This document shows, piece after piece, positions 28,262-50,220 of a stretch of 64,000 nucleotides of DNA; within the stretch, counting starts at the first letter, position 1, and every line of letters starts with the position of its first letter. Below the pieces are notes generated by a model. That model was not told the DNA's origin. It worked only from the letters and a program-made list of their open reading frames with translations, and searched no databases. The stretch spans positions 124,001 to 188,000 of the forward strand of contig NZ_CP049916.1 in the NCBI RefSeq assembly GCF_011578285.1, read 5' to 3'. This DNA comes from Acinetobacter lanii. Its GTDB lineage: Bacteria; Pseudomonadota; Gammaproteobacteria; Pseudomonadales; Moraxellaceae. The translations under genes were made by a program, and so were the position numbers.

Positions 28262-28609
28262 TTATTTTAAAGTCTGATAACGTGCTTCATCAAAACCGAC
28301 CATTAAACCTTTTTCAGTCACCAGTACCGGACGTTTGATCATGCTGGTGTGTGTAATTAAAGTTTGAATTAGATTGTCTTCACTTGCCAAGGCATTGCTT
28401 TGTTCTTCTTCAGTCAGTTTTTTCCACGTGGTGCCTTTTTTATTTAAAATTAGCTCTGCTCCGGCTTCATCGAGCCATTTTTTTAGTGTTTCTGCATCAA
28501 TCCCTTGTTTTTTATAATCATGAAATTCATAAGCCAAGCCCAATGCATTGAGTAAATCAAAGGCTTTCTTCATCGAACTACAATTTTTAATACCGTAAAT
28601 TTTTAACAT
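28262..28609 (-). CDS. ArsC/Spx/YffB-family protein
   Basis: A 115-residue thioredoxin-fold protein. MLKIYGIKNCSSMKKAFDLL places one cysteine where ArsC-like reductases have it, without a CXXC partner. IKRPVLVTEKGLMVGF is the conserved cis-proline segment. It matches the YffB branch, which binds glutathione and whose reaction is unknown; it is unlikely to be a true arsenate reductase, since there is no ars operon context. Confidence 0.88.
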   Translation of the reverse strand: MLKIYGIKNCSSMKKAFDLLNALGLAYEFHDYKKQGIDAETLKKWLDEAGAELILNKKGTTWKKLTEEEQSNALASEDNLIQTLITHTSMIKRPVLVTEKGLMVGFDEARYQTLK

Positions 28610-29109: not shown

Positions 29110-29271
29110 AAAGAGAAAACCCGCATCAAATCATCCTGATTATGCGGGTCTCAATTCAACGTCCAATGTCGTTCATCCTTGGAAAATAAATCTAGATTTA
29201 TTTTCTTTTCATCCTACGGCGTCCAATCCTTATTTGTCATCCTGACATGTCCCTGTGCCGTGCGACCATAA
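29110..29271 (-). ncRNA. Candidate CsrA/RsmA-binding small RNA
   Basis: Read on the minus strand, about 160 bases hold eight GGA motifs. Three are in simple hairpin loops: TGTC-AGGAT-GACA (29235-29247), AACG-ACATTGGA-CGTT (29158-29173) and AATC-AGGAT-GATT (29129-29141). The last lies inside the terminator stem ACCCGCAT / ATGCGGGT, which is followed by TTTTCTCTT. A perfect 24-base palindrome (29182-29205, half-site GAAAATAAATCT) can form another stem. This design is that of RsmY/RsmZ/CsrB RNAs that sequester CsrA. The 5' end is uncertain, and it could instead be an extended 3' UTR of xthA. Confidence 0.55.
29119..29149 (-). terminator. Terminator of the candidate small RNA
   Basis: An 8-bp GC-rich outer stem and a 4-bp inner stem with AGGAT in the loop are followed by TTTTCTCTTT on the minus strand. 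Confidence 0.85.
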
Positions 29272-29334
29272 TGCCGAGATATAAGGGAAATAAAAATACC
29301 TAAACACGACAAGTTTTGTGAGCAATATGCGTAT

Positions 29335-29360
29335 ATTGAGTAAACAATTGTTCACTCAAT
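29335..29360. promoter_or_regulatory. 26-bp near-perfect palindrome upstream of the candidate RNA
   Basis: ATTGAGTAAACAA / TTGTTCACTCAAT has a single mismatched pair. It lies between the xthA stop and the candidate RNA, about 75 bases before the predicted RNA start, where a response-regulator activating site would sit. It has no T-run, so it is not a normal terminator. Confidence 0.55.
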
Positions 29361-29376: not shown

Positions 29377-30195
29377 TCAAATTTTGTAATCAATGATCAC
29401 AGGCGCATGGTCACTAAACCAAGTTTCTTTATATACCCAAGCATTTAAGGTACGTTCTTTCCAATCTGGTGAACACGCATGGTAATCAATCCGCCAGCCA
29501 ACGTTTTTTGCTCGTGCTTGCCCTCGATTTGACCACCAAGAGTACACTTCGGCATCTTTACGTACTTCACGGAACGTATCGACATAACCCAAATCATCAT
29601 AAATATGATCTAACCATGCACGTTCATGCGGTAAGCAGCCTGATGCTTTTTGGTTGCCTGACCAATTTTTAATATCAATGCGTTTATGCACGATATTATA
29701 GTCACCACACACAATCACCGACTTATCTTCATCACGCCATTGTTTGAGCACGTTGGTATATTCTGCTAAGAAATGATCTTTACGGGCTTGCGCTTCATCG
29801 CCAGAAGAGCCTGAAGGTAGGTACAACGAACAGATATGTGCAGATTTACCTAAGCCTAAATCAAATTCAGCGGAAATAAAGCGACCTTGAGAGTCTGCCA
29901 ATTCAAAGCCTAAGCCATCTTGAACTGAAAGGAAGGGTAATCGGCTATAAATAGCAGTGCCGGCATAGCCTGGTCGTTCAGCAGGGAACAAATGGGTATA
30001 CCAACCTTCAGGACGGAATTTTTCAGTCCATTGCGCATGGGTAATCCGACTTTCTTGCATACAAATGACATCGGCTTCAGACTGTTCCAACCACTCCAGT
30101 AGTCCCTTGGTGACAGATGAACGTAAGCCATTCACATTTATTGAAACGACACGAAGAATTTTTTGATCACTTGGATAGCTACTCTTTGGTATCAT
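29377..30195 (-). CDS. xthA: Exodeoxyribonuclease III
   Basis: A 272-residue AP endonuclease/3'-exonuclease of the EEP fold for base-excision repair. LRVVSINVNGLRSS gives the first metal-binding Asn, DVICMQESRI the catalytic Glu, VCGDYNIVHKRIDIKN the Asp/Asn pair, and WFSDHAPVIIDYKI the terminal Asp-His. The start Met precedes a short PKSSYPSDQK extension. The Crc protein is a sequence relative, but catalytic residues are intact here. It is divergent from pyrE. Confidence 0.92.
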   Translation of the reverse strand: MIPKSSYPSDQKILRVVSINVNGLRSSVTKGLLEWLEQSEADVICMQESRITHAQWTEKFRPEGWYTHLFPAERPGYAGTAIYSRLPFLSVQDGLGFELADSQGRFISAEFDLGLGKSAHICSLYLPSGSSGDEAQARKDHFLAEYTNVLKQWRDEDKSVIVCGDYNIVHKRIDIKNWSGNQKASGCLPHERAWLDHIYDDLGYVDTFREVRKDAEVYSWWSNRGQARAKNVGWRIDYHACSPDWKERTLNAWVYKETWFSDHAPVIIDYKI

Positions 30196-50014: not shown

Positions 50015-50020
50015 GAGCGC

Positions 50021-50220
50021 ACTTCATTGGGGAGTAGCCGCCTTTTACGCAAAGTAGAAGGGTGATGGTCAACATAATTGCTCTAAAACGAGCATGGTCA
50101 TCATAGCAAAGAACCAAATGTGCTTTTCTAAGCATTCTTTTGTTGGCAAGACCTTTGATTTACCATTCTGCACCTATGGCTAGCAGGAGTGGTGAGTCAT
50201 CGGTATATGTTTTGCTAGCC
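50021..50220 (+). promoter_or_regulatory. yybP-ykoY Mn2+ riboswitch
   Basis: The hallmark GGGGAGTAGCC is at 50029-50039 and GTCAACATA at about 50068. The closing GGCAAGACCTTTG segment is at about 50145, in the order found in gammaproteobacterial yybP-ykoY leaders. The hairpin GGCTAGCA / TGCTAGCC (50178-50220) just before the gene is a likely expression platform. The class binds Mn2+ and turns on manganese exporters such as the TMEM165-family gene that follows. Confidence 0.88.

Follow-up and report, generated by a model that had tools for sequence, protein, structure and literature searches.

We identify, in the 64,000-nucleotide stretch of the Acinetobacter lanii genome analyzed here (the window; contig NZ_CP049916.1, positions 124,001 to 188,000 of the forward strand), a minus-strand locus downstream of xthA that is highly likely to be a free-standing gene for a non-coding RNA of about 151 nucleotides (nt), with its own promoter and intrinsic terminator, which would titrate CsrA. 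The computation establishes a gene-like unit, its conservation, a predicted structure, the conservation of its GGA motifs and the presence of csrA and a gacA-like gene in the same genome; its transcription, binding of CsrA, activation and effect on targets are predictions from sequence. It is very probably a CsrA-sequestering RNA common to most of Acinetobacter and, so far as the literature showed, a new sponge of a known type. All positions below are those of the window.

29111..29261, minus strand: small RNA (sRNA) gene, about 151 nt, 5' end 29261, 3' end about 29111; covariance model (CM) match of 162.9 bits, the same sequence also being part of the model's alignment

The 5' end is deduced from the -10 box. 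A preliminary description of this DNA had given the extent as 29110..29271; the latter coordinate falls inside the -10 box, and the RNA probably starts at 29261. Across 83 aligned copies, the conserved block begins with ACGGC and ends in a run of T. We propose that transcription of the RNA begins at a promoter of its own and stops at its intrinsic terminator, that its GGA sites bind CsrA dimers, two of them being fixed in AGGAU loops of which one forms the apex of the terminator, and that the abundant RNA would thereby cause CsrA to leave its target mRNAs. The promoters of divergent relatives and paralogs carry a GacA box, of which the main Acinetobacter form has the right half followed by TGNCG.

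The conservation of the element was assessed on a set of RNAs comprising 141 rows, 101 of them distinct, of which 83 were aligned (alignment A1) after removal of near-identical ones; seven loci whose terminator end was not matched had been dropped (L072, L078, L088, L103, L114, L115, L137). The CM, R1, was built from 83 distinct RNAs, and a second alignment fitted to it, A2, includes distant relatives as well as L088, which has GTGGG in place of the GCGGG of the terminator and is absent from A1. As the preliminary description had stated, the minus strand of the element carries eight GGA motifs downstream of xthA, and all eight are retained in each of the 30 copies found by BLAST:

29250..29252, minus strand: GGA 1, in ACAGGGA; 30/30 BLAST-found copies and 83/83 in A1, where the search pattern forces it
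29240..29242, minus strand: GGA 2, in a hairpin loop; 30/30 and 83/83, again forced by the search pattern in A1
29227..29229, minus strand: GGA 3; 30/30 and 83/83
29222..29224, minus strand: GGA 4; 30/30 and 78/83
29212..29214, minus strand: GGA 5; 30/30 and 83/83
29176..29178, minus strand: GGA 6, in CAAGGAUG; 30/30 and 83/83
29162..29164, minus strand: GGA 7, in GGACGTT; 30/30 and 83/83
29134..29136, minus strand: GGA 8, in the apex loop of the terminator; 30/30 and 83/83

Among 127,704 windows of 151 nt on both strands of the 64 kb, this is the sole place with eight or more GGAs. Over contig positions 1-445,400 (the window and twenty 20-kb stretches, with some overlap; 921,784 windows on both strands) three clusters reach eight, the sRNA among them; the other two read as 16S rRNA and a protein-coding Rhs-like gene, labels given by recognition. 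When the element itself was shuffled, eight GGAs were reached in 0.4% of mononucleotide and 15% of dinucleotide shuffles; hence, the count alone is not decisive, whereas the conservation is. Moreover, the GGA bases are predicted to be unpaired with a probability of 0.73, against 0.34 for the other bases, the former being higher in all 83 sequences, while the GGAs of shuffled sequences reach 0.51; this and the other shuffle tests reported here (upstream motifs, GacA box and hairpins) ignore the relatedness of the sequences.

The predicted fold consists of four elements:

29217..29260, minus strand: 5' domain closed by the stem CGGC/GCCG (29260-29257 with 29220-29217); 3/4 pairs changed on both sides
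29236..29246, minus strand: hairpin GUC-AGGAU-GAC with GGA in the loop; 2/3 pairs changed on both sides
29182..29205, minus strand: middle AT-rich hairpin (24-nt palindrome); sequence variable, hairpin kept
29115..29152, minus strand: intrinsic terminator hairpin with AUC-AGGAU-GAUU apex, followed by a T-rich run; 12/15 pairs changed on both sides

Covariation of the stems in relatives, proposed earlier as a check, was found on the model-fitted alignment A2, in which 17 of the 22 consensus pairs show pair-preserving changes on both sides; such double-change cells number 100, whereas shuffles give 11.1 and sliding of the partners gives 27 at the most. The sequence-only alignment A1 yields 3 of the 22 pairs, because the most distant relatives are absent from it. 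Such changes are seen in the 5' domain stem, in both parts of the terminator hairpin and in the hairpin GUC-AGGAU-GAC; the placing of a GGA in the loop of the terminator is thus conserved. The two hairpins singled out at the outset, TGTC-AGGAT-GACA and, at the terminator apex, AATC-AGGAT-GATT, are present and conserved with compensatory changes, and the 24-base palindrome does add a stem, whose sequence varies while the hairpin is retained in 79 of the 83 sequences (in these at most 5 of 100 shuffles fold equally well). Two further details of the initial account did not generalize: the GGA hairpin with the stem AACG/CGTT occurs in 1/83 aligned sequences and is hence specific to the window's genome, and the repeat ATTGGACG (originally written CGTCCAAT), though occurring twice in the window as claimed, is found in only 4/83 and is not conserved. 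The covariation, together with insertions and deletions of one and two bases between species, also speaks against a short coding gene, to which we attach almost no credence; no open reading frame of at least 60 amino acids overlaps the sRNA, shorter frames lying outside the search.

BLAST detects the sRNA in the window's own genome and in 32 of the 36 further Acinetobacter genomes searched, whereas the 21 genomes searched from other families of the order gave no match. When named genomes were scanned with an exact pattern, at least 118 loci were recovered, which, among the matches listed, belong to Acinetobacter, with A. baumannii (L032) and A. baylyi (L034) among its species, to Alkanindiges and to metagenome-assembled genomes (MAGs) of Moraxellaceae or 'Pseudomonadota'; two loci assigned to Firmicutes (L115) and Clostridiales (L137) were set aside as chance matches. 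The nearest named relative among the matches listed is Candidatus A. avistercoris, with about 80% identity over 3.3 kb. At an E-value of 0.1 or better, R1 detects the RNA in 178 of 348 genomes of the family, namely 166/175 within the genus and 12/173 outside it, including Alkanindiges-type relatives; six weak matches (L206, L207, L208, L213, L214, L215) with 0-4 GGAs look like chance. Sixteen divergent CM matches carry 7 to 10 GGAs in 13 cases, the remaining three having 4, 5 and 6.

The genomic setting is equally stable: xth lies just upstream in 75 of the 80 named loci examined, and of the five others two are additional copies belonging to MAG KLAP32, while three are cut close on the xth side. 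Wherever the stretch reaches far enough, pyrE and arsC flank the sRNA in constant order, also in Alkanindiges. Several genomes hold more than one copy, with four in KLAP32, three in PMG_235, two in A. hydrocarboniclasticus, two in tandem in G205 and three divergent ones in G031, a small Acinetobacter genome; the window's genome has no paralog detectable with R1 even at an E-value of 3. Three of the KLAP32 copies (L043, L049, L089, L114) are nearly identical and one is divergent. In G205 (genus g25), a degenerate-looking relative with a CTTACA-type box (L298) stands downstream of xth, besides the two tandem copies elsewhere.

The window's genome encodes one CsrA, and csrA was found in 14/14 further genomes of the family that were tested; its GacA-type regulator scores 268.5 bits, below the cut-off of 280. 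In two other genera, weak CM matches lie within 250 nt of a CsrA domain and are convergent with csrA: in G199 (L301, C20:313500-315200) the sRNA match is at C20:314358-314476 (E 1.4e-4) and the CsrA domain at C20:313982-314137, and in G217 (L302, C33:38800-40200) they are at C33:39281-39420 (E 0.117) and C33:39492-39647, the stretch around the latter match having 13 GGAs in 220 nt. These GGA-rich RNAs may be separate, undescribed sponges.

Upstream of the RNA, two promoter elements recur at fixed positions:

29268..29273, minus strand: -10 box CATTAT; at -12 to -7 in 103/119 distinct upstream regions
29307..29322, minus strand: activator-type box CTCACA-N5-TGTCG (consensus CTTACA-N5-TGTCG), at -61 to -46

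The 119 distinct upstream regions are mostly from Acinetobacter, with L115, L137, L114, L043, L049, L089 and loci with less than 160 nt upstream left out. A CTTACA-type half box at -61/-62 matches 5 or 6 of 6 positions in 109 of them, and TGN(C/G)G follows it 5 nt downstream in 112. There is no recognizable -35 element, and the promoter is therefore probably activator-dependent. The activator-type box resembles the right half of a GacA box (TGTAAG-N6-CTTACA), and divergent relatives have this box in full: 10-11 of its 12 positions are matched in 19 of 20 upstream regions from other genera, paralogs and two divergent copies within the genus, with a start at -73/-74 in all but L190 and L191, whose match to the model begins later.

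These elements bear on two other explanations of the locus. One is that it is the untranslated 3' end of xthA with its terminator, the GGAs being there by chance; the element does lie on the same strand, 115 nt downstream of xthA, with no terminator listed between them by a simple scan. Against this, the spacing of the promoter elements is constant relative to the RNA but not relative to xthA, paralogs are found away from xth, the GGAs are conserved and the structure covaries, which leaves this explanation very improbable. The other is an Hfq-type sRNA that pairs with mRNAs and is merely protected or modulated by CsrA. Promoter-like and terminator-like elements of its own would suit such an RNA too, and CsrA is known to bind certain sRNAs that do not act as sponges. 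Yet it is the many, widely spread GGAs and the stems around them that are conserved, whereas the middle hairpin has drifted, and relatives occur beside csrA and with GacA boxes; we consider an Hfq-type role improbable. The preferred reading, a CsrA/RsmA-sequestering sRNA as first suggested, is supported jointly by the loop GGAs, the covarying hairpins, the -10 box and terminator, the csrA and gacA-like genes, the GacA boxes and the relatives adjacent to csrA.

Several observations weigh against a CsrA sponge gene. The left GacA half-box matches at most 2 of 6 positions in 134 of 140 upstream regions of the main Acinetobacter form (not de-duplicated), the window included, and the usual activator is therefore uncertain; given that the right half-box and the downstream TGNCG remain, GacA or another response regulator probably still activates this form. 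The simple promoter and terminator scan listed neither the -10 box nor the terminator of the sRNA, because it needs a -35 hexamer and limits loops to 8. The 181-nt stretch as a whole is of unremarkable stability (z -0.69), and the pair counts of A2 are biased in favor of the model's structure, to which this alignment was fitted. The selection pattern of A1 fixes GGA 1, GGA 2, ACGGCA and the GCGG..TTT terminator end, and in the 16 divergent CM matches each GGA position is retained in only 3-15. Nine genomes of the genus lack an R1 match at an E-value of 0.1, and the eight of them that were tested retain csrA; one of the nine, G176, has a divergent match at 5e-6 under laxer filters. The 520 nt after xth in G014, G113, G118, G123, G137, G181 and G030 (L289-L295) hold 0-4 GGAs on that strand, so that the sRNA is lost, dispensable or elsewhere in a few lineages. 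Finally, among the Rfam models, CsrB (RF00018), RsmY (RF00195) and rsmX (RF02144) have no window match at threshold and none up to an E-value of 10, and the element scores 10.5 bits with PrrB_RsmZ (RF00166), where 44 are needed.

Further upstream stands a third conserved element:

29339..29356, minus strand: FabR/DesT-type operator-like palindrome AGTGAACAATTGTTTACT, at -95 to -78

Along the minus strand the order is thus palindrome (29356-29339), activator-type box (29322-29307), -10 hexamer (29273-29268) and RNA (29261-29111). The motif AGTGAACANNTGTTCACT is matched at 13 or more of 16 positions in 108/119 upstream regions, as against 0/2380 shuffles, and the palindrome is placed at -95/-96 in 118/119; the Alkanindiges-type regions (L046, L065, L108, L134) score only 9-11/16. 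In the seven named loci checked that have xth at a distance of 151-393 nt, the palindrome stays at -95 with 13-16/16 matches, and it therefore belongs to the sRNA. We examined the possibility that it is an RNA hairpin or the xthA terminator and not a protein-binding site. In some species the dyad is indeed kept by paired changes, as with AGTTTACANNTGTAAACT in L002 and L107. Conversely, no T-run follows it in the window, its distance to the sRNA is constant irrespective of that to xth, and the same positions mark fabR-type and desaturase genes; such an origin is accordingly unlikely.

With at most one mismatch, the motif has only two other locations in the window's genome. One is the promoter of a gene for a fatty-acid desaturase (PF00487, 76.1 bits); the other is the intergenic region between a FabR-type TetR gene (NF008402, 145.8 bits, just below the FabR cut-off of 151) and a ferredoxin-reductase-like gene, which holds two further copies with two mismatches. 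Allowing three mismatches gave no enrichment (32 and 33 matches versus 34 and 42 for a reversed control), and hence near-perfect palindromes alone are informative. Across 41 genomes of the genus there are 73 sites that deviate from the motif by no more than one mismatch, 8 genomes having none, while the reversed control motif is absent from 40 of the 41. Twenty-six of these sites are at the sRNA (20 confirmed by a neighboring xth, six assigned by coordinates against BLAST matches), 33 lie between fabR and the reductase gene (19 genomes), 5 at a desaturase gene, 4 near a sensor kinase gene and 5 elsewhere. The four sites of the sensor kinase type (L239, L244, L262, L311, in four genomes) are one-mismatch palindromes between a hybrid sensor kinase gene and a gene for about 255-270 amino acids, followed in three cases by an ErdR-like reading frame, labels that go by resemblance to L234; this gene is a possible further member of the palindrome regulon.

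The palindrome, the most surprising part of our findings, points to control of the sponge gene by a FabR/DesT-type fatty-acid repressor. The E. coli FabR site AGCGTACACGTGTTCGCT agrees with AGTGAACANNTGTTCACT at 13 of 16 positions (PMC4273635), and at P. aeruginosa fabA the DesT site likewise lies upstream of a putative activator site (PMC3462791). The passages of the FabR/DesT literature consulted contain no mention of such a site at a Csr/Rsm sRNA, no search having been aimed at the combination. We accordingly entertain, with even chances of being right or wrong, a rewired sponge that has lost half of its GacA box and gained a FabR/DesT-type operator at -95 to -78, such that a sensor of fatty-acid unsaturation, reading either membrane fluidity or the acyl-CoA pool, sets how much CsrA is free.

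In size, GGAs in AGGA hairpin loops, terminator, presence of several copies in some genomes and presumed sequestration of CsrA/RsmA, the RNA resembles RsmX/RsmY/RsmZ/PrrB of Pseudomonas, for which these features and the GacA box TGTAAG-N6-CTTACA, seen here in divergent relatives, are typical. It differs from these RNAs in its location after xthA, the loss of half of the GacA box and the FabR-type palindrome. It shares the principle of the GGA-loop sponge with enterobacterial CsrB/CsrC; these are much longer and have roughly 18-22 GGAs, as opposed to 8. Eight related loci likewise remained below the gathering scores of the Rfam models, the best being 28.0 bits (CsrB; the divergent paralog L193) and 23.9 bits (rsmX). 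Hence, the RNA should work as an Rsm/Csr sponge and yet falls outside the described Rfam families.

The earlier statement that no well-described family member is known at this place holds with regard to Rfam thresholds; it needs qualification in that a CsrA-regulating sRNA was predicted in A. baylyi ADP1 in 2006 and may be the same gene as the one described here. According to PMC5568370, that earlier paper (Kulkarni et al. 2006) predicted one RsmA-regulating sRNA in ADP1, and Table 2 of PMC5568370 lists two predicted ones, ACIAD0018/0019 at 25035-24917 and ACIAD2750/2751. These share the genus and the proposed function with our RNA, while the orientations of their flanking genes are unlike xth-sRNA-arsC, three genes with a common direction in A. 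baylyi; the type strain of that species has dnaA and the window-type sRNA on different contigs. In the passages seen of PMC12442408, the antagonist in the CsrA network is given only as a 'CsrB-like small RNA' of A. baylyi, with the 2006 prediction cited. Among the papers listed by full-text literature searches, no title or abstract opening describes the gene, supplementary tables and many subscription papers, where the transcript may well be listed, being out of reach; passages of PMC3976366, PMC5538643, PMC11472050, PMC11796373 and PMC12802169 contain no mention of it.

The immediate neighbors of the sRNA are the following:

29377..30195, minus strand: xthA (exodeoxyribonuclease III family), upstream neighbor; TIGR00633 229.5 bits and TIGR00195 221.1 bits, both above cut-off
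28262..28609: ArsC-family gene on the other flank, above the cut-off of the Spx/MgsR-type subfamily model TIGR01617

The placement of xthA beside pyrE resembles the crc-pyrE arrangement of Pseudomonas, and crc was considered for the upstream neighbor instead of xthA. Among the PDB relatives of its product, an exodeoxyribonuclease (2jc5) scores 246.9 bits and Crc, the catabolite repression control protein (4jg3), 222.5 bits; NCBIfam gives xth above cut-off, and the protein may be an active exonuclease III or a Crc. Elsewhere in the window, a manganese (yybP-ykoY) riboswitch is found at 50017-50160 on the plus strand (54.8 bits against a gathering score of 45).

csrA is described as essential for A. 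baumannii on rich media (PMC12802169), and csrA, hfq and rnd are repeatedly mutated by A. baylyi in laboratory evolution (PMC12442408, PMC11426457). With a gene that keeps its location in most of Acinetobacter, the missing sponge arm of this CsrA network becomes directly testable. The FabR-type operator, if functional, would provide a lipid input to a Csr/Rsm sponge and, if this is true, the state of the membrane lipids would be tied directly to the global post-transcriptional program in Acinetobacter.
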